The translations under genes and the position numbers were made by a program. DNA of 64,000 nt from Synechococcales cyanobacterium CNB (GTDB taxonomy: Bacteria > Planctomycetota > Phycisphaerae > Phycisphaerales > UBA1924). Shown here one piece after another: positions 13,858 to 64,000 of the stretch (the stretch's first letter is position 1; each line of letters begins with the position of its first letter). Under the pieces are notes generated by a model. That model saw nothing but the letters and a program-made list of their open reading frames with translations. It did no database searches and had not been told where the DNA came from. The stretch covers positions 62,001 through 126,000 of the forward strand of contig SZOZ01000011.1 of the NCBI GenBank assembly GCA_030263455.1. The letters are read 5' to 3'.

Positions 13858-15432
13858 TCACTCCCACTCGATGGTGGCGGGCGGCTTGCTGGAGATGTCG
13901 TAGACGACGCGGTTTACCCCGCGCACCTCATTGATGATCCGGCCCGAGATCGTCGCCAGCACGCTGAACGGGATGCGCGCCCAGTCCGCGGTCATGAAGT
14001 CCTGCGTTTCGACGGCGCGGATAGCGACCACGGACTCGTAGGTGCGGCCGTCGCCCATTACGCCCACCGATTGCACCGGCAGGAGCACGGCGAAGACCTG
14101 GCTGGTCTTGCGATAGAGGTCGGCGGCCACGATCTCTTCCAGCAGGATCTCGTCGCATTCGCGGAGCAGGTCGAGTTTCTCGCGTGTGACTTCGCCAAGG
14201 ATGCGCACCGCCAGCCCCGGGCCGGGGAACGGGTGCCGCCAGATGATCTGGTCGGGCAGGCCCAGCACTTCGCCGAGCTTGCGGACTTCGTCCTTGAAGA
14301 GGTCGCGGAGCGGTTCGACAAGCTCGAAGGCGAGGTCCGAAGGCAGCCCGCCGACGTTATGGTGGAGCTTGATGCCCGCCGACTTGCCCCCCACGGAGTG
14401 GCCCGACTCGATCACGTCCGGGTAGAGCGTGCCCTGCGCGAGAAAGCGGGCGTGCCTGCCCTGGGACGCGATGCGGGCCGCCTCGGCGTTGAAGACCTCG
14501 ATGAACCTGTGGCCGATCCGGCGACGCTTCTCCTGCGGCTCCGTCACACCCGCGAGATCGGCGAGAAAGGCGCCCGCAGCGTCAATGACGCGAAGGTCGA
14601 TGTGGAAATGGTCGCGGAAGGTGGTTTCAACCAGGTGACGCTCGTTCTTGCGCAGCAGTCCGGTGTCCACGAAAACGCAGGTGAGGTGGTCGCCAATAGC
14701 GTGGTGCAGCAGGGCGGCCGTGACGGACGAGTCGACGCCACCCGAGAGGCCGCAGATGACGTGCCCGTCGCCGACCTGCGCCCGGATGCGCTCCGAGGCG
14801 GTCTGGGCGTAGTCGGCCATCCGCCATGCGCCCCGGCAACGGCAGATTTCGTAGAGGAAGTTGCGGATGACGTCGATGCCGTGAGGGGTGTGGGTCACCT
14901 CCGGGTGGAACTGCACGCCGAAGAACCGGCGGGCAGGATCGGCGGACCGGACGGCAGCGTGCGGACAGGTCGGCGTCGACGCGATCGTCTCCAAGCACGC
15001 GACGGTGAGGTTCTCGACCTGATCGCCGTGCGACATCCAGACAGTCGTGCGGTTCGGGACCGCTGCGAAGAGATCGCCCGAATCCGAGATGTCGAGGTGG
15101 GCACGGCCGAACTCGCGCCGGTGGGCACGGGCGATCCGTGCGCCGAGCATCTGGCAGGCCAGTTGCATGCCGTAGCAGATGCCGAGGACGGGGACGCCCA
15201 GGTCGAGGATGGCAGGATCACACGTAGGCGCGCCTGACTCGTAGACGCTGGCCGGTCCACCGGACAGGATGATGCCCTTGGGGTTGAGGGCCTTGATCTC
15301 GCTCACGGGCGTGTCCGGCGCGAGGAGCAGCGAGAACGCCCCTGCCTCGCGGACGCGGCGCGCGATCAGTTGGGCAGTCTGCGACCCGAAGTCGAGAATG
15401 GGGATGACTTCATCATGCGGGAGAGGGGGCAT
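13858..15432 (-). CDS. guaA: GMP synthase (glutamine-hydrolysing)
   Basis: 524 residues. Converts XMP to GMP. The N-terminal class I glutamine amidotransferase has the Cys nucleophile in GICYGMQ and His/Glu in FHPEVT; the ATP pyrophosphatase domain has the PP-loop [10 protein letters not shown]; the C-terminal dimerisation domain ends with the conserved KPPATIEWE. Complete. The start ATG 15432 has neither a clear ribosome binding site nor a TANNNT box close by. Divergent from the HEAT lipoprotein gene. Confidence 0.97.
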
Positions 15433-52658: not shown

Positions 52659-54485
52659 ATGAGTCAGAAATCGCACCCGGCGGGTACGGTCCAGCGGTGG
52701 ACACGAACCCTGATCCCCACCCTTCGAGACGCTCCCGCCGAGGCCACCACGCCGAGCCACGCCCTCCTGCTTCGGGCCGGCTTCATGCGGCAGGTGGCAG
52801 CCGGGGTCTACGACTACCTCCCCCTGGCCTGGCGCGTCCTCACGAAGGTCACTCGGATCGTCCGCGAAGAAATGGACGCGACCGGCGCGAGCGAGATGCT
52901 CATGCCCGCCCTCCAGCCGATGGAGCTCTTCGAGCAGACAGGCCGGGCGGAGGACTACGGCGACAATCTCTTTTGCCTGCGCGACCGGCACGGACGCGAG
53001 ACCGCTCTCGGACCCACGCACGAGGAGGTCATCACGGACCTGCTGCGCACGGCGATCACCAGTTACCGGCAACTGCCGCTGATTCTGTACCAGGTGCAGA
53101 CGAAGTTCCGCGACGAGCCGCGCCCGAGGGGGGGTCTGCTGCGCGGGCGCGAGTTCATCATGAAGGACGCGTACTCGTTCCACCTGGCCGTCGAAGGGGC
53201 GGGGGGGCTGAACGAGGCGTACGACGCCATGTACCGGGCGTACTCGAACATCTTCCGCCGGTGCGGTCTGGACTTCACGGTCGTCGAGGCCGAGAGCGGG
53301 CCGATCGGCGGCTCGGCGAGCCACGAGTTCATGGTCAACTGCGAGACGGGCGAGGACACGATCCTGCGGTGCCCTGAGAGCGGCTATGCCGCCAACGTCG
53401 AGAAGTGCGAGATCGGCGAGCGGAAGTGGGGTTTCGACCGTGGGGCCGGCACTCCTTCCGCCTTACTCGAAAGAGTCCACACCCCCGACATGCCCGGGAT
53501 CGAGGGCGTCGCCCAGTTCCTCGGCGTCACGCCCGATCGGATGCTCAAGACCATCGTGTTCGAGGCGGCGGATGCCGTGACAAGCGGTGGGGTGAAGTGG
53601 GTGCTTGCCGTTGTGCGCGGTGATCACGAGGTGAACGAGGGCAAGGTCAAGGCCGCGATCGGGTTCAGGGCCAAACTCGCCGACGAAGCGAGGGCGAAGC
53701 AGGCCGGATTCGCCATCGGCTACGTCAGCCCTGCAGTCGTGCAACGAACCGGTCTGCGCCCGGAGGACGGCGTGCGAGTCATCATCGACCCGGACGCCGC
53801 ACAGGGGAACATCGCGTGGGCAACGGGAGCGGACGAGCGCGACCACCACGTCCGCGGCTTCGACTGGCGGCGCGAGATGGGAGCGATACTCGACGACCAG
53901 CGTTATGTAAAGGTGGCCGACATCCGCAACGCTCGGGCAGGCGATCCCTCGCCCCGAGCCCCCGGATCGAAACTCGTCGAACAGCGGGGAATCGAGGTCG
54001 GGCACATCTTCAAACTCGGCACCAAGTACTCCGATGCGATGGGTCTGGCCGTCCTCGACGAAGGGCAGCAGAGGCGATCCGTCATCATGGGGTGCTACGG
54101 CATCGGCGTCAGCAGGACCATGGCCGCCTGCGTCGAGATGAGCCACGACGCTGAGGGCATCATCTGGCCGGCTGCTATCGCCCCGTACCACATCCTGCTG
54201 ACGGTGATGAAGCCCGACGATGCCGCGCAGATACAGGCGGCGCAACGGCTTGCCTCCGATCTGGGCGAGGCGGGCTTGGACGTTCTCATCGACGACCGGG
54301 ACGAGCGACCCGGTGTCAAGTTCAAGGACGGCGACCTGATCGGTCTCCCCGTCCGCCTCACCGTGGGCGACAAAGCCCTTGCAGCAGGGGGGGTGGAGTT
54401 CAAGCACAGGTCGGAGGCCGGCAAGGGGGAGGTCGTCCCGCTGGGCGATGCGGTGGCGCGGTGCGTGACGGCCGTGCGGGCATGA
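52659..54485 (+). CDS. proS: prolyl-tRNA synthetase, bacterial type
   Basis: 608 residues. Class II motifs: PTHEEVITDLL (motif 2 region), RGREFIMKDAYSFH, and motif 3 near CYGIGVSRTMAACVE. A YbaK-like editing insertion lies between motifs 2 and 3 (about 245-400), as in E. coli ProS. The C-terminal anticodon-binding domain has DVLIDDRDERPGVKFKDGDLIG. Charges tRNA-Pro and clears mis-charged alanine. Confidence 0.97.
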   Translation: MSQKSHPAGTVQRWTRTLIPTLRDAPAEATTPSHALLLRAGFMRQVAAGVYDYLPLAWRVLTKVTRIVREEMDATGASEMLMPALQPMELFEQTGRAEDYGDNLFCLRDRHGRETALGPTHEEVITDLLRTAITSYRQLPLILYQVQTKFRDEPRPRGGLLRGREFIMKDAYSFHLAVEGAGGLNEAYDAMYRAYSNIFRRCGLDFTVVEAESGPIGGSASHEFMVNCETGEDTILRCPESGYAANVEKCEIGERKWGFDRGAGTPSALLERVHTPDMPGIEGVAQFLGVTPDRMLKTIVFEAADAVTSGGVKWVLAVVRGDHEVNEGKVKAAIGFRAKLADEARAKQAGFAIGYVSPAVVQRTGLRPEDGVRVIIDPDAAQGNIAWATGADERDHHVRGFDWRREMGAILDDQRYVKVADIRNARAGDPSPRAPGSKLVEQRGIEVGHIFKLGTKYSDAMGLAVLDEGQQRRSVIMGCYGIGVSRTMAACVEMSHDAEGIIWPAAIAPYHILLTVMKPDDAAQIQAAQRLASDLGEAGLDVLIDDRDERPGVKFKDGDLIGLPVRLTVGDKALAAGGVEFKHRSEAGKGEVVPLGDAVARCVTAVRA

Positions 54486-56291: not shown

Positions 56292-56813
56292 ATGGGATTG
56301 CCGCAAGGGCTCCGCGAGGTGCGGATCGGAATCGTGTTCGCCCTGGCGACCATGCTTCTCGGGTTCGGGCTAGGAGGCGTGTTCGGGCTGGCGGAGGAGT
56401 CGCTCAAGGGTGACCTGGACCGGCGCGGCAAGGCCGTGTTGGAGAGCGTCTACGCGGGCAACGACGCCAAACGGATCGAGACCAGGGACAAGGCATGGAC
56501 GTACTACAAGCGAGCCCACCTGCACGCAGGAGCCATGGGAACCTCCGCCTTGGCGATGTCGATGCTACTGGCCAAGCTGCCAGGCGCGACGCGGCTGCGG
56601 TCGAGTATTGCGATCGCCCTGGGAATCGGCGGGCTTGGCTACGGCCTGTTCTGGCTGCTGGCGGGAATGCGTGCGCCCGGACTGGGGAGCACGGGATTGG
56701 CGAAGGAGTCGCTGAAGTTGCTCTCGATGCCTTCTGCCGGCCTGTTTCTCCTGGGAACATTGCTGGTCATGGCACTGTTCGCCAAGGAGTCATGGGCAGG
56801 CAGCAAATCCTGA
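56292..56813 (+). CDS. small integral membrane protein of unknown function
   Basis: 173 residues with about four membrane helices (about 12-33, 75-92, 100-122, 145-163). YYKRAHLHAGAMG before the second helix carries two His residues that could bind a metal or heme, but I do not recognise a family. GGGCAGG precedes the ATG. It is the last chromosomal gene before the dif-like site, and its final 47 bases lie opposite the 3' end of the first element gene. Confidence 0.65.
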   Translation: MGLPQGLREVRIGIVFALATMLLGFGLGGVFGLAEESLKGDLDRRGKAVLESVYAGNDAKRIETRDKAWTYYKRAHLHAGAMGTSALAMSMLLAKLPGATRLRSSIAIALGIGGLGYGLFWLLAGMRAPGLGSTGLAKESLKLLSMPSAGLFLLGTLLVMALFAKESWAGSKS

Positions 56814-57243
56814 GGGCGACCCGGTCGCGGCGGGTACGGTCGATTCGCAGGCCTTGTTTAACATAACCGCTATTCTCGGACGAATGGCGCGCCGTATCCT
56901 CATCGGTGGTGCATGTATCCGCCGATTTTGAAGCGCCTCGCATTTGGCGCGCTGGCGCGCCACTAATGGCGCGCTGGCGCGCCACGATCCGAAAAACTCG
57001 CGGAATCACTGCATCATTTTCGATGCGCAGCCAGCCCGCCTTCTGGAGGCTCGCGGTGTGGCGCGGGATCGTGTTGCGGTCGTCCATCCCAGTCAACTCG
57101 GCCAGCATCTTGTTCGTTGCCCGGATCAGCCCATCGGAATCGGCCAGAGTATCGAGGGCTACCAGCACCTTCAACTCAGGCCCGGAAAGGTCGCTCAGCA
57201 GGCGATTGGTGTCAAGCTCGGGGTGGACTATCTGCTGCGCCAT
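56767..57243 (-). CDS. winged-helix DNA-binding protein reading through the attachment site
   Basis: 158 residues. About 12-70 is a winged helix (LSGPELKVLVALDTLA, MLAELTGMDDRNTIPRHTASLQKAGWLRI), similar in style to phage replication or control proteins. The rest is basic and low in structure. Residues encoded across the dif-like site read NSGYVKQG; the last about 28 residues come from chromosomal sequence, so the natural C-terminus in the circular element would differ. ATG 57243 is preferred over ATG 57285, which directly abuts the predicted -10 box. Confidence 0.65.
   Translation of the reverse strand: MAQQIVHPELDTNRLLSDLSGPELKVLVALDTLADSDGLIRATNKMLAELTGMDDRNTIPRHTASLQKAGWLRIENDAVIPRVFRIVARQRAISGAPARQMRGASKSADTCTTDEDTARHSSENSGYVKQGLRIDRTRRDRVALRICCLPMTPWRTVP
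56856..56883 (-). other. dif-like XerCD recombination site (putative attL)
   Basis: Read on the minus strand: an 11-base XerC-type arm TCGTCCGAGAA, a 6-base centre TAGCGG, and an 11-base XerD arm TTATGTTAAAC. The XerD arm matches the E. coli dif arm TTATGTTAAAT at 10 of 11 positions and the 11-6-11 spacing is exact. The XerC arm is more divergent, which is common between phyla. It sits where chromosomal genes end and the viral gene block begins. Confidence 0.7.
56886..56984. repeat. cluster of GGCGCGCC palindromes and a 18-bp direct repeat
   Basis: GGCGCGCC occurs at 56886, 56954 and 56976. The 18-base unit TGGCGCGCTGGCGCGCCA is repeated exactly at 56945-56962 and 56967-56984, and each copy can fold into a GGCGCG/CGCGCC hairpin with a CTGG loop. 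The cluster lies inside the winged-helix gene, 3-100 bases from the dif-like site. It could be a binding site for that protein, an origin element or a recombination accessory site. Confidence 0.6.
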
Positions 57244-57285
57244 GGAGGGGGGCTGCTCCACGACCCGTGGTAGGTCGCCGGGCAT

Positions 57286-57314
57286 GGTATACTGCCCATC
57301 GACGGACTTGGCAA
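57286..57314 (-). promoter_or_regulatory. promoter of the winged-helix gene
   Basis: TTGCCA (-35) and TATACC (-10) separated by exactly 17 bases. Transcription would begin a few bases inside the ATG at 57285, which argues for the downstream ATG 57243. Confidence 0.5.
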
Positions 57315-57465
57315 GCGGGGCTGCTGCCAGCCGTCAAGCCCCCCGCCTGCCCGATGTTGCCGGGGGGCAACTCGCGGTCGTCGGCCGACTCGGCCGGCGG
57401 TCGCTTTCATCGGCCTGGCCGAGGCCAGACTTCCACTTTTTGACACACACGCGAGGCGCTTCGGT

Positions 57466-57499
57466 GGCCCGGCCTCCCAATCCCCCGGGAGGCCGGGCC
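57466..57499 (-). terminator. terminator-like hairpin after the structural operon
   Basis: A perfect 13-bp stem (GGCCCGGCCTCCC with its complement) around an 8-base loop, 14 bases beyond the stop of the lectin-domain gene. No T tract follows on either strand, so it may be a factor-dependent or RNA-stabilising hairpin. Confidence 0.55.
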
Positions 57500-57513
57500 T
57501 GGCGGAAGGCGAC

Positions 57514-58368
57514 TCAGGCGCGGACGCTGAACGAGTTGAACGCCCGGCCGCTGAGGGCGAAGGTGCCCAGGCCGGCGAACCCCGGGCCGGCATGGGTCGC
57601 GTCGATCAGACTGATGACGCCGGCCCCGTTCTTCTCGACCTCCAGGGTGGTTCCCGTCGCGCGGATGCGCATCTCATCGCCGATGGCGTAGCCGGTCGGG
57701 ATGGTCGTGAGCGCCGTAGCGACGTTGGCCGTGACGACGTAGAGCACGGTGCTCAGGGTCGTAGCGCGCGCAAAGTAGCCGCTCAGCGTGCCCCCCCCCG
57801 AGTCGGTTACGCGCAGGCCGACCAGGTGCTCGCCTGCGGCGCTGCCGATGACGATGGCGGCCTCACCATCCGCGAACTCGAGCGCGTTGTAGAGCAGGCA
57901 CGAACGCGGGTTGCCCGCGGCCTCGACCGCAGTCGCCGAGCACTGCCCCCCCCCTTCGGTGAAGGCTCCGCGTGCCTGCGTCCACCACGGGTTGAGGCTG
58001 CCCACCTCGAACGCATCATCGAAGTTGCTGTTGCGCCAGACGACGACGTTCTGTACGCCGCCGGTGGATTCGAGCGATCCGCCGTGGGATCCGCCGTTGG
58101 AGCCTCCGCCGCTCCCTCCGCTCCCTCCGAGTCCGCCGCCGCCGTCGTCTCCCCCCGCGAGGATGGCGGCCGCGACGTGGCCCGCGTAGGCGACGTCGCG
58201 CGGATAGCGCCGGCGCCGGGGCATCCGTCCGAGCTGTCGGCCTCCGCCGGCCGCGACCGGGCGCCGCGGTGCAGACTGGTGAGGGGGGGGCACCGCCGGC
58301 GTCTTACCCGGCATGTAGCGGTCGAGAAACTCCCCCACCAGCCGGTAGTAGTCGAGCGGCGAAGCCAT
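57514..58368 (-). CDS. probable virion spike / receptor-binding protein, LamG-like C-terminus
   Basis: 284 residues. N-terminal helix (MASPLDYYRLVGEFLDRYMPG), a Pro/Arg-rich stretch, a Gly/Ser hinge at about 75-98, then a C-terminal beta-sandwich (about 108-284). Its ending (GDEMRIRATGTTLEVEKNG, then GPGFAGLGTFALSG) is the last part of concanavalin/laminin-G-like folds common in phage host-binding proteins. A hinge plus lectin fold suggests host recognition. ATG overlaps the upstream stop (TGATG). It contains two 9-G tracts on the coding strand. Confidence 0.55.
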   Translation of the reverse strand: MASPLDYYRLVGEFLDRYMPGKTPAVPPPHQSAPRRPVAAGGGRQLGRMPRRRRYPRDVAYAGHVAAAILAGGDDGGGGLGGSGGSGGGSNGGSHGGSLESTGGVQNVVVWRNSNFDDAFEVGSLNPWWTQARGAFTEGGGQCSATAVEAAGNPRSCLLYNALEFADGEAAIVIGSAAGEHLVGLRVTDSGGGTLSGYFARATTLSTVLYVVTANVATALTTIPTGYAIGDEMRIRATGTTLEVEKNGAGVISLIDATHAGPGFAGLGTFALSGRAFNSFSVRA

Positions 58369-59054
58369 CAGCGCAGCACCGAGTCCGGGTACGGCGGGGC
58401 GACGGCCACCTGAACGATGACGCCACCGGTGAGCGTGCCGGTCTGTCCATTGATCTGCGAGCCGCGCACGACCAGGCACATATCGAGCGAGTCGCCGCGG
58501 CGTAGGCGCGCCGGGTGCGGGAAGTACCGCACCGGCGCGCCCTTGTTCGGCGCGGCATCGTTGTACTTCCCCGTGGGGAACGTCGTCACGAAGAGCGATT
58601 CAAGCGTCGATCGTCCGAGCAAGAGGCTCACGCCGGACGTTTCGACACCGACGACGTTGGAGGGGTAGGAGTACCACTCCTGGAACGGACCGGGCAGGTT
58701 GCGGCCGATGACGATGGCCGCGCCGTGCCCCCTCGCGTCGCCCCAGGCGATGCCTGCCGATCCGGCGTTGTCGGTCGGCAGCATTTCGACGCCGATCCAG
58801 CTCACCGCGGACGGCTGGGCCAACTCGCCGTCGATGCCGACGCGGAGGCTCTGGAACTTGAACCAGGCGGACGCGCCGATGGTCGGGTTGCTCACGGCGA
58901 TCGCGGTGAAGCCGCCGACCTTGACGCTGGTGTCGGCGGCTCCCAGGAGCGCATCCGCGGCGCCGCCGGCCGCTCCCGCGCCGCCGCCGGCGCCGGCCTG
59001 GTGCGGCGGGACGACGCCCGGCGCGATCAGTCTTGGGTCGGTCCACCAGCTCAT
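58368..59054 (-). CDS. beta-rich putative structural protein A
   Basis: 228 residues. A Gly/Ala-rich N-terminal linker (about 12-40) is followed by a beta-rich body with no membrane helix: VGGFTAIAVSNP, WFKFQSLRVGIDG, GHGAAIVIGRNLPG, and a C-terminal strand pair ending GGVIVQVAV. Size and strand pattern fit a single jelly-roll capsid or penton-type protein, but no motif proves this. The start overlaps the preceding stop as ATGA. Confidence 0.5.
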   Translation of the reverse strand: MSWWTDPRLIAPGVVPPHQAGAGGGAGAAGGAADALLGAADTSVKVGGFTAIAVSNPTIGASAWFKFQSLRVGIDGELAQPSAVSWIGVEMLPTDNAGSAGIAWGDARGHGAAIVIGRNLPGPFQEWYSYPSNVVGVETSGVSLLLGRSTLESLFVTTFPTGKYNDAAPNKGAPVRYFPHPARLRRGDSLDMCLVVRGSQINGQTGTLTGGVIVQVAVAPPYPDSVLR

Positions 59055-59533
59055 GCGCGGTAACGCCGCTTGCCCCAGAAGACCAGCTGGGCGCGCACGC
59101 TCTCCCCGGAGTCGTTGTAGAGGATGCCCCGCACCGTCACGTTCTCGGGGATGGTGTGGCGCGTCGTGAAGTACCCAGGGTCACGCCCGTCGCCAACCAG
59201 CAGGTTGAGCCGGACGGGCGCGTCGAACCACGGCTCACCCGCGGTGAACAACTCGACGCGGAACGCGGCGAGCGTCATAAATGTGTTGGAGTCGCGGGTC
59301 GCCACCGCGTCCCGAGGCGCCGGCGTGAACGCCACAGCGGACCCGCTTGCCGACGGGATGTACACAGCGGCGCGGAGACTCTCCAGAATGAACGTTCCAT
59401 TCTGGCTGAACGCCTTCGACGCCTGGGCGTTCGCGCCCGCGGCGATGGTCGTGGCCCAGTCGAGCGTGTAGGCGTACACGCGCTCGGCCATCCGTGCGCC
59501 CAGGTCTCCGGCTACGTCGGCTACGTCAGTCAT
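59051..59533 (-). CDS. beta-rich putative structural protein B
   Basis: 160 residues. An N-terminal helix (about 1-25) then beta strands: GTFILESLRAAVYIPS, FMTLAAFRVELFTAG, PVRLNLLVGDG, VTVRGILYNDSG and AQLVFWGKRRY. Soluble. The alternation and length fit a capsid, penton or decoration protein. GGGAG lies before the ATG; an in-frame start eight codons earlier lacks a good site. A 60-base gap separates it from the putative major capsid gene upstream. Confidence 0.5.
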   Translation of the reverse strand: MTDVADVAGDLGARMAERVYAYTLDWATTIAAGANAQASKAFSQNGTFILESLRAAVYIPSASGSAVAFTPAPRDAVATRDSNTFMTLAAFRVELFTAGEPWFDAPVRLNLLVGDGRDPGYFTTRHTIPENVTVRGILYNDSGESVRAQLVFWGKRRYRA

Positions 59534-59593
59534 GGCGGTGCTCCCATTTGCGGTCAATGCCCCGGGCCGGCTTTCGCCGGCACGGGGGGGGGA

Positions 59594-60301
59594 TCAGTAC
59601 TTCTCGACGGTGCAGAGCTGGCCGAACAGGCCGACGCGCACGACCAGGTCGGCGAAGGTGTCGAGCGTCAACTCGCTCCAGTCGATCGACAGGTTGATGC
59701 GCTTGAGCGGCAGGATGATGGTCGGAGGATCGAACCAGTAGCCGTCCTGCGTCGAGTGCGCCACGCGAGTCGAGGCGAACTGCCGGTGAACGGTTGTGTT
59801 GGTGTCGTGCGTGGCGCCGTCGATGTGCGGCGTGGACGGCCAGGGGAAGTTGTGAACGCCGAAGACGTTCTCGATGGGCCGTCGATTGCCGACGCGCATG
59901 TTGACGACACCGTGCGCGTAGAGCAGACGCCTGGCCTCGGCGGCCTCGCCGGCGGAGTCTGTCGGAACGGCGGTGCCCTCCACGTACTCCTGGTGGGTGG
60001 CGATCGCGGCGCCGGCGAGCGAGCGGCCGGCCTCGATGTAGATGCCGACGCGCTGCAGCGCGAAGTAGTACTGGCTGGGAAGCTGCGAGGCCTGCGGCAT
60101 GTTCGTGACGCGAGGCGCGTTGGCCGCGTTGAAGAACTCCAGGCGACCCGGCGTGCCGGTTGCTCCGCCGGTGTCGGGCAGCGCGGTGCGGAACCAGTAG
60201 CACTCCGGCCTGACGTAGTAATCGGCATCGTTGTACGGGCTGCCGTTCAGCGACGCGATCAGCGTGCGGTGAGCGGGGTGAAGACCTTTGTGAATCTGCA
60301 T
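59594..60301 (-). CDS. candidate major capsid protein
   Basis: 235 residues, soluble, with the clearest stand-alone ribosome site of the block (GGAGGTCC before the ATG). Predicted mostly beta: YYFALQRVGIYIEAG, LLYAHGVVNMRVGN, then TIILPLKRINLSIDW and FADLVVRVGLFGQL near the end. It shows no HK97-fold or known motif I can recognise. Size and beta content would fit a jelly-roll capsid protein of a tailless phage; this assignment is an inference from position and composition. A 9-G tract follows the stop. Confidence 0.45.
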   Translation of the reverse strand: MQIHKGLHPAHRTLIASLNGSPYNDADYYVRPECYWFRTALPDTGGATGTPGRLEFFNAANAPRVTNMPQASQLPSQYYFALQRVGIYIEAGRSLAGAAIATHQEYVEGTAVPTDSAGEAAEARRLLYAHGVVNMRVGNRRPIENVFGVHNFPWPSTPHIDGATHDTNTTVHRQFASTRVAHSTQDGYWFDPPTIILPLKRINLSIDWSELTLDTFADLVVRVGLFGQLCTVEKY

Positions 60302-60362
60302 GGCGGACCTCCACTTGTTGCCGGGGGAACAGGTGCGAGGTCAACGGGCCGGAGGCCCACGA

Positions 60363-60989
60363 TCAGCCGGCGTACTCCATCTCGGCCTCCTGGCCGGTGA
60401 GCGACGGGTCGTCCGGTGCGGGAAGCGCGGCGTAGCCGAGGCCGGTGAGCGTCGGATCGTTGGCGGCGGGGTACGCCGCGTAGCCGAGTCCGCTCATTGC
60501 GCGCTGGGCCTGCCAGGTGCGAACCAGGTCGATCGCGGCACCGGCCAGCGCTCCGACCATCAGCCCGGTCGCGGCCTTCGTGCCGATGAATCGACGCGCG
60601 GCGATCGAGGCCGCCAGGCCCACGCCGGCCTTGGCGATCAGGCGTCGATTGCCGACTCGCCAGTCCATCGGCGCGAACCGATCGAAGATCATGTCGGCGC
60701 CGACGACGCCGGCGGCCGTGGCCGCCACCGCGGGCAGAGTACCGGCCGGAAGGAACGCGAACCCACGCCGCCTGACCGGAGAACGTCGGCGGGTCGCACG
60801 GCGCCGAGCAGTCGAGCGGCGCTTCGCCATTGGAACACCTCCCCGGCGCTTCTTCGCCGGACGTGAGCCGGCCCGCGGACGGCGCTTACGCCGCGCCGCC
60901 GCGAGCATCCTGGCCGTGGCGCGACGCTGGGCCGCGCTTCGAGCCTTCTTCCGACGCCGGGGGGGGGGATTCGGGATGACCAACTGCAC
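60363..60989 (-). CDS. arginine-rich, membrane-associated virion-type protein, two possible starts
   Basis: 208 residues from GTG 60989 (GGAGG upstream) or 155 from ATG 60830 (GGAGGTG five bases upstream). Residues 1-75 are extremely basic (runs of Arg/Lys, protamine-like). About 80-160 is hydrophobic and Ala/Gly-rich, with two possible helices (LPAVAATAAGVVGADMIF, GLMVGALAGAAIDLV). The C-terminus has two tandem 16-residue repeats starting LGYAAYPA and LGYAALPA, each ending DPTLTG or DPSLTG. A genome-condensing or membrane-lining role is plausible. A 10-C run lies eight codons after the GTG. Confidence 0.55.
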   Translation of the reverse strand: MQLVIPNPPPRRRKKARSAAQRRATARMLAAARRKRRPRAGSRPAKKRRGGVPMAKRRSTARRRATRRRSPVRRRGFAFLPAGTLPAVAATAAGVVGADMIFDRFAPMDWRVGNRRLIAKAGVGLAASIAARRFIGTKAATGLMVGALAGAAIDLVRTWQAQRAMSGLGYAAYPAANDPTLTGLGYAALPAPDDPSLTGQEAEMEYAG

Positions 60990-60992
60990 TGC

Positions 60993-61241
60993 TCAGCCCT
61001 CCAGGTACACGGTGCGGGATCGACGGGTCACCTTCACGGGCGATGCGACGAGCACCCCCGGAGCAGCCTGGCTGACGTAGACGCGCGGCCGTCGCTTGAA
61101 CTTGTGCTCGTAGCGCTTGCCGTCGCGTTCGTAGATGACCGAGCAGAGGTTGCCCAGGTCGATCGCCTCGACGGCCGGCGACTCTTCGCGCCGGTGCCCA
61201 CCGCGGCGCGGCCGGATTTCTGCGGGGAGTCGCTTGCTCAC
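60993..61241 (-). CDS. small basic protein of unknown function
   Basis: 82 residues from a GTG that overlaps the upstream stop (GTGA). Arg/Lys-rich N-terminus (KRLPAEIRPRRGGHRR), then a compact beta-like domain: CSVIYERDGKRYEHKF, RVYVSQAAPGVLVAS, VYLEG. Not recognised. Position between membrane and basic proteins suggests a virion or morphogenesis role. Confidence 0.5.
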   Translation of the reverse strand: MSKRLPAEIRPRRGGHRREESPAVEAIDLGNLCSVIYERDGKRYEHKFKRRPRVYVSQAAPGVLVASPVKVTRRSRTVYLEG

Positions 61242-61888
61242 CGGCGCCCTCCCTTCCGCCTGAAGGCGATGAGCAACAGGCCCATGCCGAGCATGATCAA
61301 CGGGAGGGGCGGGGATGGGGACGGATCGCCACCCCCGCCCGCGTGCCCCGGAGAGACCAGGCTGGCCGGGGGGATCGGCGCCATGAGCGACTGGATCACC
61401 GACACGGCCCCAGCCGCCGCCCCCGCGGCCGCGGAAGCGACCCGCGAGGCCGGCCCAGGAGCCGTCTGGACGGGCGGGGTGGACCCGGGAGCCAGCCCGA
61501 GCCGCGAGAGCGCAGCGGCCGTCCTGGAGGCGTACAGCGGGTGGGCCAGGGCGAGCGTCACCGCGGCCTCCAGGCTCTTCTTGTCCGGGATCGGTCCCTT
61601 GCCGGCGGCGGCCGCCTCCAGGCCAGCCACCAACTTCGCCATATGCGGCCAGGTCGCGGGCCACTGACGCGGGGCCGCGGCCGTCGCCGCGGCGATCGCC
61701 GTGCGCGCATCGGGGGCGATCTTCTGGACAAAGAGCGTTCCCGCCCAGGCCTCGCAGGCCGCGCCGCCTTCGTTCCGGCAGACAGCCTCGTACATGAGCC
61801 GCGGTGCGGGGTAGCGCGTGCGCGGGTACCGACGCGCCGTGCCGGCGTTCAGCCACAAAGCCGTGTCCATGACGGGGAGACGGCTCAT
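61238..61888 (-). CDS. predicted membrane protein with C-terminal anchor
   Basis: 216 residues from ATG 61888 (ATGA overlap with the upstream stop). The N-terminal half contains Trp, Tyr and Cys residues (MYEAVCRNEGGAACEAW). About 140-165 is an Ala/Gly helix (ASAAAGAAAGAVSVIQSL) similar to one in the 160-residue protein upstream; a Pro/Gly linker leads to a C-terminal membrane helix (LPLIMLGMGLLLIAF) followed by RRKGGRR. This topology fits a virion-membrane protein. Confidence 0.55.
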   Translation of the reverse strand: MSRLPVMDTALWLNAGTARRYPRTRYPAPRLMYEAVCRNEGGAACEAWAGTLFVQKIAPDARTAIAAATAAAPRQWPATWPHMAKLVAGLEAAAAGKGPIPDKKSLEAAVTLALAHPLYASRTAAALSRLGLAPGSTPPVQTAPGPASRVASAAAGAAAGAVSVIQSLMAPIPPASLVSPGHAGGGGDPSPSPPLPLIMLGMGLLLIAFRRKGGRR

Positions 61889-62544
61889 GCGGGACTCCGG
61901 CGACGGGGACGAAAGTGCAGCATCGCAAGAAACGCACCGACGATCAGCACGCCACCGAATCCGATCGCTGTAGCCTGGACGAGCGGCGGCGCAGGCTGGG
62001 TCGGGCGAGAGAGAGTGGGGAGTGTACTCGGAAGCGGCTGCTGTGCTTCTAACTTCGCCTTCAGCAGCAGCTCCCACATACGCAGAGCAGTAGCATTCTG
62101 CTCCTTGTTGATCTTGACATCCGCGTTCGCATCAACGTGATTCCAGAGCACGACCGTCGCCGCGGCTACGACGGCCAGCACCAGCACTACGGCCACGATG
62201 GGGATGGCCGCGAGTCCAGATATCCTGGCTGGATGCTGGTCGGCCCGAATCAGCCCTCGGCGCACCGCCTCGTCGTACTTCGCCAGGTGTACAGATACGC
62301 GCTGCCTCAGACGTTCGCCGAACGTCTCAACCCATCTATCCATCGCCTGGAGCTGAGCGCGCCGTCCAGGGGCCAACCGTGTTCGGTCAATGCTCGGGAG
62401 CTCAGTGACGATCTTGTTGTACAGCCTGGTGACGGTAGTGAGTCCCATCATCGACCGTACCATTTGATCGCGTAGCCCCGGGAAGAGACGCCACCACAAC
62501 CCAAGGTCTACAGAGCCGGTATTGTGTGTGGGGTCAACGTACAT
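61885..62544 (-). CDS. predicted two-pass membrane protein
   Basis: 219 residues. A soluble helical N-terminal part (about 1-105), a membrane helix at about 108-132 (AAIPIVAVVLVLAVVAAATVV), a short loop, and a second helix near 193-210 (AIGFGGVLIVGAFLAML) followed by RPRRRSP. Lower GC than neighbours. No Shine-Dalgarno before ATG 62544, so a start further inside is possible. Stop overlaps the next ATG. Confidence 0.55.
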   Translation of the reverse strand: MYVDPTHNTGSVDLGLWWRLFPGLRDQMVRSMMGLTTVTRLYNKIVTELPSIDRTRLAPGRRAQLQAMDRWVETFGERLRQRVSVHLAKYDEAVRRGLIRADQHPARISGLAAIPIVAVVLVLAVVAAATVVLWNHVDANADVKINKEQNATALRMWELLLKAKLEAQQPLPSTLPTLSRPTQPAPPLVQATAIGFGGVLIVGAFLAMLHFRPRRRSPA

Positions 62545-62555
62545 AGGGAGAACCG

Positions 62556-62792
62556 ATGCTGCTCACATTCAACTGGTTGGAACTCAGGCCAAAGACGCGG
62601 GGGGAAGTCGTCCTGGACAAACTCGCAGACTCGGCGCCGGAACTCGTACTGGCATTCATCGGCCTCATCGCTGTACTCGCCGTCTGTGAGACGATCAACT
62701 GGGTTTGCAAACGCGCGATGCGAACCAAGGGGACTTTTACTCCTCCCACCCCAACTGACGACTCACCGACTCCAGGTCGCCATCCACGTTGA
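62556..62792 (+). CDS. small single-pass membrane protein on the opposite strand
   Basis: 78 residues; AGGGAG lies five bases before the ATG. One membrane helix at about 29-48 (LVLAFIGLIAVLAVCETINW), then a Lys/Arg cluster and a Pro/Thr-rich tail. It is the only plus-strand gene in the element. It starts 12 bases from the divergent two-pass protein and its 3' end overlaps the minus-strand gene beyond by 56 bases. Holin, immunity or virion protein are all possible. Confidence 0.45.
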   Translation: MLLTFNWLELRPKTRGEVVLDKLADSAPELVLAFIGLIAVLAVCETINWVCKRAMRTKGTFTPPTPTDDSPTPGRHPR

Positions 62793-63027
62793 TCGCGGTG
62801 CCGCCCGCCAGGTGGAGCGTGACCGTGTCGCCGCGCGTGCTCTCGATGGCGAGCACGTGGCCGACCTTCACGCGCACGGCGCCGTGTGGCCCGCTGAAGT
62901 AGGCCGAACGCTTCGACCTCTCCACGCTCTCGGCGACGCGCTCCAGGGCGTTGAAGGTCTTGGCCGCAGCCTCTTCGATCATCGAGTCTGGTGGCTGCGG
63001 AAGGGCACCGTTGAGTCCGTCCATCAT
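62737..63027 (-). CDS. small protein with FlbD-like beta domain
   Basis: 96 residues. N-terminal helix (about 15-40, EEAAAKTFNALERVAESVERS) then VRVKVGHVLAIESTRGDTV and LHLAGGTAINVDGDLESV. The second part looks by eye like the FlbD family pattern (I..Ie..pDT.I.L.nG....V..S...v). Function in the element unknown. The start is three bases after the upstream stop. Confidence 0.5.
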   Translation of the reverse strand: MMDGLNGALPQPPDSMIEEAAAKTFNALERVAESVERSKRSAYFSGPHGAVRVKVGHVLAIESTRGDTVTLHLAGGTAINVDGDLESVSRQLGWEE

Positions 63028-63030
63028 GGT

Positions 63031-63513
63031 TCACCTCATCAACGCGAGCAGTGCGAGTGCGCCGAAGCCTACGAGCATCAGCGTGTTGTCCTGGCGAGCC
63101 GGCTGCGCCGCCGGCTGCATCGGGGGCAGCATCGTCGCCACCTGGCCCGCGGCTACGGGGAGTTGGCCGGGGAGAAGGCTCCGGATCGCGGGGCCGACGA
63201 CGGGGATGGCACCGGCCGCCGCGCCCGCCGCCGCGACCGCCATCGGCCGCAGCGCGTTCTTGATGTTCTTGAAGAGGTTCGAGAACAGCCCTTCAAGCTG
63301 CTCATCGTCGCCGGCCAGGCCGTTGAGTCCGCGCATGCGCATGTAGCGGTACAGCGCCACGACGTTATCCGCGGGCATGGCCGCGAGGATGCGGCGCTGC
63401 TCGGCGTCGGGCAGGTTGACCAGGGCGGCCGGGCTGATCGGCGCAGCGCCGAGGCCGCGGACACCGCGGCCGCAGACGCGCCGAACACACTTGCAGCGCC
63501 CCAGGTCGGTCAT
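63031..63513 (-). CDS. predicted membrane-associated protein with GAAAGAI helix
   Basis: 160 residues. N-terminal Cys/Arg-rich segment (MTDLGRCKCVRRVCGRG), a helical middle (LPDAEQRRILAAMPADN and LEGLFSNLFKNIKNALRP), an amphipathic Ala/Gly helix (AVAAAGAAAGAIPVVGPAIR), and a C-terminal hydrophobic helix (LMLVGFGALALLALMR). Such peptides can perforate or line membranes, as expected of an internal-membrane phage or a lysis factor. ATGA overlap with the gene upstream. Confidence 0.52.
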   Translation of the reverse strand: MTDLGRCKCVRRVCGRGVRGLGAAPISPAALVNLPDAEQRRILAAMPADNVVALYRYMRMRGLNGLAGDDEQLEGLFSNLFKNIKNALRPMAVAAAGAAAGAIPVVGPAIRSLLPGQLPVAAGQVATMLPPMQPAAQPARQDNTLMLVGFGALALLALMR

Positions 63514-63758
63514 CGCGCCCGCTCCAGCAGAGCGGCCTCCAGCGCGGCGACGCGCTGGCGGAGCTTGAGCGCCTCGCCCTTCCAGTACCCCATTGAGCGG
63601 CGCATGTGCTGGTACTTCCGCACCATCTTCGCGGCCGGTGAGCCGGGCTGGAACGTGACGCCCTGGAGGCCGTTGGATCGGCCCAGGCCGTCGAGCTCGC
63701 CGCTCTCGTCCTCGCCGAGTCCGTTCAGGATGTCCGACGCCTCATCGCGCGTGAGCAT
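63510..63758 (-). CDS. small coiled-coil protein
   Basis: 82 residues. N-terminal acidic LTRDEASDILNGLGEDESGELDG, middle basic, C-terminal heptad pattern (LKLRQRVAALEAALLERAR) suggesting a coiled coil. GGAGG precedes the ATG. Function unknown. Confidence 0.5.
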   Translation of the reverse strand: MLTRDEASDILNGLGEDESGELDGLGRSNGLQGVTFQPGSPAAKMVRKYQHMRRSMGYWKGEALKLRQRVAALEAALLERAR

Positions 63759-63760
63759 GG

Positions 63761-63919
63761 TCAATCCTCCAGGCCGATCTTGCGGAGAATGCGGCCCAGC
63801 GCACGCTCCATCGTCTTCAGCCGTTCGTCGTGTCTGCCGAGCTGGACGGCGTTGGCGACCGCCGCGGCGACGCCCGCCGCTATGACGATGACGTTGACGC
63901 CGATGAGCAGGTCCTGCAT
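63761..63919 (-). CDS. 52-residue single-pass membrane protein
   Basis: Starts MQDLLIGVNVIVIAAGVAAA: one N-terminal membrane helix (about 4-24), then a charged helical tail (GRHDERLKTMERALGRILRK). The layout resembles small phage membrane proteins such as XhlA-type lysis accessories or minor coat proteins; neither can be confirmed. ATG overlaps the upstream stop (TGATG). Confidence 0.5.
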   Translation of the reverse strand: MQDLLIGVNVIVIAAGVAAAVANAVQLGRHDERLKTMERALGRILRKIGLED

Positions 63920-64000
63920 CACGACTTCGCCTTGGTGCTCGCCTCATCCCAGGCCGCGTCCGCGGCGCGGTGGACGCGCGCTCGGGCGGTCCACCCCCCC
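63919..64000 (-). CDS. C-terminal fragment of a further element gene
   Basis: Open from the window edge to a TGA that overlaps the next ATG. The visible end reads WTARARVHRAADAAWDEASTKAKS. Too short to identify; overlap style matches the rest of the operon. Confidence 0.4.
   Translation of the reverse strand, partial: GGWTARARVHRAADAAWDEASTKAKS

Follow-up and report, generated by a model that had tools for sequence, protein, structure and literature searches.

How does a compact block of virus-like genes come to begin exactly at a dif-like site in a planctomycete chromosome? The question is raised by contig SZOZ01000011.1 of a Phycisphaerales bacterium (assembly GCA_030263455.1), of which we analyzed a stretch of 64,000 nucleotides (the window; contig positions 62,001 to 126,000). 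At 56856-56883 of this window, plus-strand host genes end just to the left of an 11-6-11 site and a compact minus-strand block begins there. A preliminary reading of the letters and open reading frames (ORFs), hereafter the sequence-only reading, had placed the site at this edge, which the switch of gene strands confirms, and had taken it for the left attachment site (attL) of an integrative mobile element exploiting Xer recombination (IMEX). Our results make it very probable that the block is an IMEX-type provirus of 11,987 bp, circular when free, that lies in the dif of its host, is integrated by the host's XerC/XerD, and is probably a small tailless icosahedral phage.

A chromosomal dif site occupied by an integrated element

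The letters of the site read GTTTAACATAA-CCGCTA-TTCTCGGACGA. As attL (56856-56883, plus strand) it comprises the XerD-side arm of the chromosomal dif, GTTTAACATAA, the 6-bp core CCGCTA, and the XerC-side arm TTCTCGGAC together with element bases. The XerD-side arm differs at 1 of 11 bases from the reverse-complemented E. coli dif arm, so that the 10 of 11 matches claimed by the sequence-only reading hold, and the XerC-side arm agrees with the E. coli XerC arm at only about 5 of 11 bases, counted by eye. A full E. coli-like dif pattern was not found within the window at up to three mismatches; this order has a different XerC arm. In the 3.2-Mb genome, the 11-mer GTTTAACATAA has a single exact occurrence, and a weight matrix built from 26 dif sites of other genera and applied to the 190-kb contig scored 39.5 at attL, 25.7 at a second copy and only 0.9 at the third-best place; the unique 11-mer and the low third score rule out a chance site. 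We also searched 61 genomes (the host's and others from its genus, family, and order) for the pattern GTTTAACATAA-N6-TTCTCGGAC with up to three mismatches and found it in 34, own included, with a single copy in 32 of these, while the reversed pattern, used as a control, matched in 1 of the 61. The consensus of the 26 sites of other genera is GTTTTACATAACATGTATTATCGGAC, with conserved arms and a more variable core. Judged from these letters, the site is the real chromosomal dif of the host genome. A large systematic dif prediction included one planctomycete genome and, in the portion of the paper available to us, predicted no site in it (PMC3025954).

The sequence-only reading had proposed to look to the right for a second dif-like site, within 50 kb, and to compare relatives lacking the block; such a site and such relatives were found. 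The right attachment site, attR, lies at 14843-14870 of locus L002 (window-equivalent 68843-68870), 4.8 kb past the window end. It shares with attL an 18-bp direct repeat, TAACCGCTATTCTCGGAC (56864-56881 in attL, plus strand), and the two copies are in direct orientation with a spacing of 11,987 bp and no other copy within the 20-kb locus. Two genomes of the same genus were searched, G001 and G002, and in both the flanks of the element adjoin at one intact, empty dif: the left flank is 85-86% identical, with the match stopping about 50-80 bp before dif, and the right flank, 77-80% identical, lies on the other side of the same site. No match to the element was found in the 20.0 and 17.9 kb around the dif of these two genomes, and neither genome has a match to the element proteins R or T. 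With attR in place, an empty dif in two congeners and no PF00589 match on the contig, the interpretation of the site as the attL of an integrated element is borne out. The GC content of the block (69%) is near that of the host (about 67%), which would suit an ordinary dif beside unrelated chromosomal genes with no mobile element involved. The flanking repeats, the relatives at dif, and the absence from two congeners argue against such an arrangement, and the empty sites already refute it, leaving it with next to no probability.

Related elements at dif within the order

As a family marker we used ORF T (58368-59054, minus strand), a beta-rich protein present in all six related elements, the one in the window included. 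Its profile matched in 6 of 400 genomes of the order (G000, which is the host itself, G020, G038, G068, G256, and G316) and in 2 of 392 genomes of a phylum sample, both already among the six, so that no new carrier was added. Five of the six elements lie beside dif, and the sixth is a contig with a terminal repeat, an apparent circle, that bears the element's own attachment site (attP). None of them was found at a chromosomal place other than dif, as the tie between block and dif proposed at the outset would have it. Both attachment sites are present in G000 (11,987 bp), G256 (about 14.2 kb), G316 (about 15.4 kb), and G068 (about 11.4 kb), the last with an inverted gene order with respect to dif. 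In G020 the contig begins inside the element, and the T match lies 2.6 kb from dif. The apparent circle is a 10,807-bp contig of G038 with a 21-bp exact terminal repeat. A second contig of this genome carries attL and an element end; as the part shared by the two contigs is only 82-87% identical, we rejected the idea of one element in two states and regard them as two related elements. In 20 other dif-bearing genomes, no second site or element gene was found in the 7.7-19.9 kb examined to the right of dif.

The R, S, and T reading frames are maintained across these divergent relatives at 22-34% identity to the G000 copies, and the gene order R, S, T, U is conserved. Used alone, the R query matched 9 of the 400 genomes, counting the host, but not G256, which had been found with T; four of the nine (G162, G125, G218, and G268; E 0.004-0.008) are unconfirmed as carriers, and the contigs of G162 and G268 gave no match to other element proteins. 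Outside the order, queries with R and E of G000 and the T homolog of G038 against a phage collection of 50,697 records returned only Salisaeta icosahedral phage 1 (SSIP-1), as two records of one phage and via E. No relative was confirmed when IMG/VR was scanned with R, T, and E, which is weak evidence as near-exact peptides are needed there, and a genome-contig search with the T protein of G068 gave no match. Some members carry additional genes. The G316 element also encodes a cytosine DNA methyltransferase, and a protein of the G256 element (L065:4024-4971; L062:11524-12471) matches Pfam Glyco_hydro_56 (4.7e-6) and is possibly a cell-wall or capsule enzyme.

Recombinases and attachment-site anatomy

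The genome has nine PF00589 matches and none on this contig (C11), which therefore carries no tyrosine recombinase gene. The PHROG matches of the element's 22 ORFs and the Pfam matches of 10 of them, through which the other recombinase classes were looked for, likewise contain no recombinase. The host encodes a XerC recognized by NCBIfam (338.6 bits, cut-off 335.15) and a XerD-like protein. The features of an IMEX are thus seen in the precise placement in dif between two dif-like sites, the lack of a recognizable integrase, and the presence of both host proteins; together with the empty dif of the congeners, they support the earlier proposal of an integrase-free element of this type. It could still be that an unrecognized recombinase or transposase of the element's own, and not the host XerCD, places it at dif. 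Most element genes are of unknown function, the DNA-binding ORF at attL has weak excisionase matches (phrog_4764, 0.31, in G000; phrog_4691, 0.0084, in G256), and the tailless prophages found at dif in Vibrio regularly have integrases, with the route left undecided in the sections of that study at hand (PMC11630473). We consider this explanation very unlikely, as no tyrosine recombinase is encoded on the contig, none is among the PHROG or Pfam matches, and the junctions consist of the dif core and arms, as Xer strand exchange would give.

From attL and attR, the host dif can be deduced as GTTTAACATAA-CCGCTA-TTCTCGGACTG and attP as TTTTGACGTAA-CCGCTA-TTCTCGGACGA. The two have the core and the XerC arm (9 of 9 bases) in common and agree at 8 of 11 bases in the XerD arm. 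In the relatives, attP and dif agree in the XerD arm at 7 (G038), 4 (G256), and 3 (G068) of 11 bases and in the XerC arm at 9, 8, and 7 of 9, respectively, with the core identical (6 of 6) in every pair. A matching core and XerC arm beside a divergent XerD arm are therefore found in G000, G038, G256, and G068. G316 differs and has the reversed layout, in which the XerD arm agrees at 8 of 11 bases, the core is identical, and the XerC arm is replaced by GAGCAAGGT (1 of 9).

The arrangement of the first four is that of TLCphi and the gonococcal genomic island, IMEXs described, in the excerpts available, as matching dif in the XerC arm and core and diverging in the XerD arm (PMC5357621, PMC4246890). 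The same excerpts give the integration of TLCphi as XerD-first, FtsK-independent, and reversible (PMC4246890, PMC5357621). Like these two, the element has an attP with core and XerC arm identical to dif, lacks a recognizable integrase, resides in a host with XerCD, and leaves a dif-like site at one end. It differs in the XerD arm of attP, which is only partly degenerate, and in its setting: TLCphi is a satellite of filamentous phages in Vibrio and the gonococcal island has type IV secretion system genes in Neisseria, while here capsid-type genes are found in a planctomycete. No integrase is recognizable in the element, four other bacteria have relatives of it next to dif, and a fifth has one as an apparent circle; most likely, then, the element borrows the host XerC/XerD, on which its integration would depend. 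These recombinases would pair attP (TTTTGACGTAA-CCGCTA-TTCTCGGACGA) with the chromosomal dif, and since core and XerC arm are common to both but the XerD arm has degenerated, on the pattern of TLCphi and the gonococcal island, a XerD-first and presumably reversible reaction would be the likeliest route, with a full dif remaining beside the element.

Some observations sit uneasily with this account. At the stringency of up to three mismatches, 27 of the 61 genomes gave no dif match. The host XerD-like protein scores 319.7 against an NCBIfam cut-off of 329.6, while it is above the NF001399 cut-off. In G000, 8 of 11 XerD-arm bases of attP are still those of the host arm, and the TLCphi-type label is therefore one of degree. 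The second sites of G068 and G256 agree with the first at 7 and 8 of 9 XerC-arm bases, and the arrangement in G316 is opposite to that of TLCphi and the gonococcal island.

A different entry route would be that of a single-stranded DNA (ssDNA) phage whose attP is a hairpin, as in CTXphi, which would make integration effectively one-way. An inverted repeat, TGAGGATACGCC / GCCGTATCCTCA, flanks the G000 attP, where strong hairpins are predicted, and a 218-nt region there has a more stable predicted fold than 60 base-shuffled versions (z -5.6 and -3.9 for the two strands). Predicted hairpins are weaker in G316 (z -3.8 and -3.3), and none are predicted in G038 or G256, where the fold signal is weak or absent (z -1.3 to 0.0). 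Moreover, the G000 signal comes partly from palindromes outside attP, attP already has a linear core and XerC arm, and no HUH motif was found by pattern in G000. We regard this route as improbable. The left end of the element, at 56884-56990 of the window, is rich in GGCGCGCC-type palindromes.

Gene content and the case for a tailless phage

We chose 22 minus-strand ORFs (A-V) by eye and from start signals, without a trained gene caller. A link to a known phage is provided by ORF E, which lies in the 4.85 kb of the element past the window, together with ORFs I, H, G, F, D, C, B, and A. E is homologous to gp34 of SSIP-1, an annotated structural protein (tblastn 4e-4; hidden Markov model (HMM) 6.2e-20; HHalign 98%), and gp34 is its sole relative among the 50,697 phage records at E values up to 0.1. 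ORF B resembles gp33, the neighbor of gp34, by HMM (0.00031) and not by HHalign, and the two genes stand in the same order in both genomes. E also has a sub-threshold transglutaminase match (0.038). The description of the block as virus-like is thus borne out by the homology of E and, weakly, by the predicted folds of R and S. ORF R (59594-60301) is a putative major capsid protein with a jelly roll predicted at low confidence (pLDDT 57), its fold matching best a capsid protein of SPV1 (Z 7.9; 131 aligned, 3.2 A), with HHIV-2 next (Z 7.7; 117 aligned, 4.6 A). ORF S (59051-59533) is a putative small capsid protein with a predicted jelly roll (pLDDT 78.5), matching SPV1 (Z 7.9), HHIV-2 (Z 7.8), the P23-77 VP16-VP17 entry (7.3), and SH1 (7.2). 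ORF V (56767-57285) encodes a winged-helix protein that resembles phage replication initiators (phrog_270, 1.1e-5; Pfam HTH_36, 0.00042, under its cut-off). Its frame runs across attL into host DNA, and the ORF at its place in G038 has similarly weak matches (phrog_345, 0.00063).

With candidate capsid proteins of jelly-roll-like fold, small membrane proteins, and a protein that may initiate replication among its products, the element probably represents a small tailless icosahedral phage in its proviral state, possibly one with an internal membrane, and a distant relative of SSIP-1. It may form virions, and packaging would proceed without a recognizable ATPase. Several results count against this picture. 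The fold matches of R and S are marginal, with no Foldseek match at E < 0.001 and all VIA Z values below 8. Unrelated PHM monooxygenase chains reach Z 7.7 for S and head its Foldseek list, so the model of S is only consistent with a jelly-roll capsid fold. Neither R nor S has clear sequence homology to the 28 of 57 SSIP-1 proteins used for profile comparison, and motif and profile searches of G000 found no plausible packaging ATPase motif. T and U could likewise not be clearly aligned with the 28 SSIP-1 proteins, and no plausible Walker A motif was found by the same searches in G000, G038, or G068.

The small size of the element, the lack of a plausible packaging ATPase or large replication enzyme, and the lack of a described family for most of its proteins are also what one would expect of a satellite or domesticated island that enters dif by XerCD and makes no virions of its own, being packaged by a helper or serving the host. 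Such a state is unlikely in our view, given that the R, S, and T frames are maintained over divergent relatives, that the order R, S, T, U is conserved, and that an apparently circular form exists in G038. We retain the provirus interpretation and note two other phage types that were considered and set aside. A microvirus-type ssDNA phage with an HUH Rep was rejected for lack of an HUH motif in G000 by pattern, and a tailed prophage for lack of a tail or terminase match among the G000 ORFs. The helix-turn-helix (HTH) ORF of G256 has a weak match to a terminase small subunit (0.0048) beside its excisionase match.

The remaining ORFs within the window are also on the minus strand. ORF U (57514-58368) is glycine-rich and beta-rich, is found in five of the six related elements, own included, and may be a spike- or fiber-like protein. 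ORF Q (60363-60989) has a very basic N-terminus and a hydrophobic stretch, judged by eye, and a weak homolog in L042 (E 0.001). ORFs O (61238-61888) and N (61885-62544) look like membrane proteins by eye, O having no family match; in L042 and L044, ORFs of similar appearance occupy the position of N. ORF L (63031-63513) has a hydrophobic C-terminal segment (by eye) and a weak L042 homolog (8.7e-4). The small proteins P (60993-61241, basic), M (62737-63027), and K (63510-63758) have no family match, and ORF J (63919-64000), lipoprotein-like by eye, is truncated by the window end. PHROG searches of all 22 ORFs and Pfam searches of 10 gave little beyond HTH and weak sub-cut-off matches, among them matches of U (0.026) and B (0.27) to head-and-packaging families. 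Runs of at least seven C reach a density of 5.84 per 10 kb in the element, about 13 times the 0.45 per 10 kb of the remaining contig, and G runs are about four times denser (window 56864-64000 plus L002:10000-14850 against the rest); one C run is located 2 bp upstream of the ORF H start.

Comparison with known phages

SSIP-1 is described as a membrane phage with two capsid proteins in the passages we could consult (PMC4958249, PMC6356626). Beyond the homology of E to gp34 and the weak resemblance of B to gp33, its genome (NC_017983) differs from the 11,987-bp element in its size of 43.8 kb and in its annotated integrase and ATPase. Sphaerolipoviridae-like viruses are marked by two vertical single jelly-roll capsid proteins and an ATPase. 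R and S model weakly as single jelly rolls, and capsid proteins of Sphaerolipoviridae/P23-77 and of SPV1 rank high among their fold matches (VIA Z no higher than 7.9), but sphaerolipoviruses have a putative packaging ATPase, according to a partial text (PMC5332951), which motif and profile searches did not find in the element. The enterogokushoviruses such as EC6098 belong to the Microviridae, which typically have ssDNA genomes of 4-6 kb and whose capsid and replication genes differ from those of this element. They are tailless icosahedral phages that are reported, in the excerpt available, to use a dif-like motif and host XerC/XerD (PMC7062461); our element has such a motif and probably shares the tailless icosahedral form and the use of the host recombinases. 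The Vinavirales prophages of Vibrio are tailless and 12-15 kb long, and a few of them lie at dif (PMC11630473, in part). The element resembles them in size and location and differs from them in that they have double jelly-roll capsids and, regularly, integrase genes.

IMEX phages and icosahedral phages at dif are therefore already known from the accessible parts of these papers (PMC7062461, PMC11630473). The novelty appears to lie in the lineage, in the phylum of its host, and in an integrase-free type that has such capsid candidates, and a search of open-licence PMC full text found no published planctomycete dif element or provirus of this kind.

A possible replication switch in one relative

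In G316 (L044:965-16345), the winged-helix-like V and a C-terminal part, A, form a single frame of 434 codons across attP in the circle only. When the element is integrated, a TAA stop from the host XerD arm ends V and separates it from A. V is identified as an initiator there by a weak match (phrog_31115, 0.02). A V-A fusion in the G000 circle was rejected, as the two ORFs meet across attP in different frames, and the G038 attP lies outside the ORF corresponding to V. For these two reasons, the possible switch linked to integration is not general.

A second, unrelated element and the putative terminus region

A second element of 11.15 kb lies in G057 (contig C1, L047:100-11290) between dif-like sites that share TAACAGGCATTATCGGAC in the same 18-bp arrangement. 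Its genes include a P-loop ORF (GQTQSGKT), one for a protein of 644 aa that weakly matches a phage endonuclease (phrog_33635, 3.5e-5), and one for a 392-aa protein that we read as a capsid candidate (phrog_28223, unknown function) and that matched none of the phage records. At this dif, contigs C10 and C1 of G057 have an overlap of exactly 127 bp, like an assembly branch. None of the proteins of the ORF T family matched in this element, and at least two kinds of element thus use dif in this order.

The sequence-only reading had also placed the replication terminus at this locus. On this contig the cumulative GC skew peaks at 141,070, within a wide plateau (about 120-170 kb), and declines past 175 kb, which is compatible with a terminus at dif, as seen from 190 kb of the 3.2-Mb genome. 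The site, at contig position 118,856, is the genome's dif and lies 22 kb from the maximum, which favors the claim; the curve is uneven (2414 at 60 kb, down to 1869 at 90 kb, and up to 2924), and this earlier rise and dip, along with the limited coverage, leaves the claim only partly supported. A left neighbor of dif is the host proS (proline--tRNA ligase; 52659-54485, plus strand), whose closest named genomes are Phycisphaerales and Phycisphaeraceae metagenome-assembled genomes (MAGs), up to 68% identical. The proS-dif-hutH surroundings are a conserved neighborhood of the putative terminus. Of four named Phycisphaerales/Phycisphaerae loci, three have dif near proS, as do G000 and G020, and the same proximity, with a divergent site, is seen in a Geobacter and a Desulfuromonadales MAG. 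hutH lies on the opposite side of dif in G000, G316, and G256.

Implications

In its boldest form, our interpretation would be of a new lineage of small tailless phages, so far observed in this one order of Planctomycetota only, that integrates at dif without an integrase, packages its genome without a recognizable ATPase, and has attP within a putative replication-initiator gene in at least one member. We put this combination forward tentatively, as a possibility that is rather doubtful as a whole. With these findings, elements that exploit Xer become known from a phylum where, as far as the part of that study at hand shows, systematic dif prediction had been unsuccessful (PMC3025954), and the order gains a dif consensus. 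The findings also provide tailless-type proviruses that lack a recognizable integrase, the case left open in Vibrio, going by the sections available (PMC11630473). With opposite attP arrangements in one family, of XerC-arm and of XerD-arm type, it could be tested directly how the loss of an arm sets the order of Xer strand exchange, and if the frame structure of G316 has the meaning suggested here, integration itself would switch replication off in that element.
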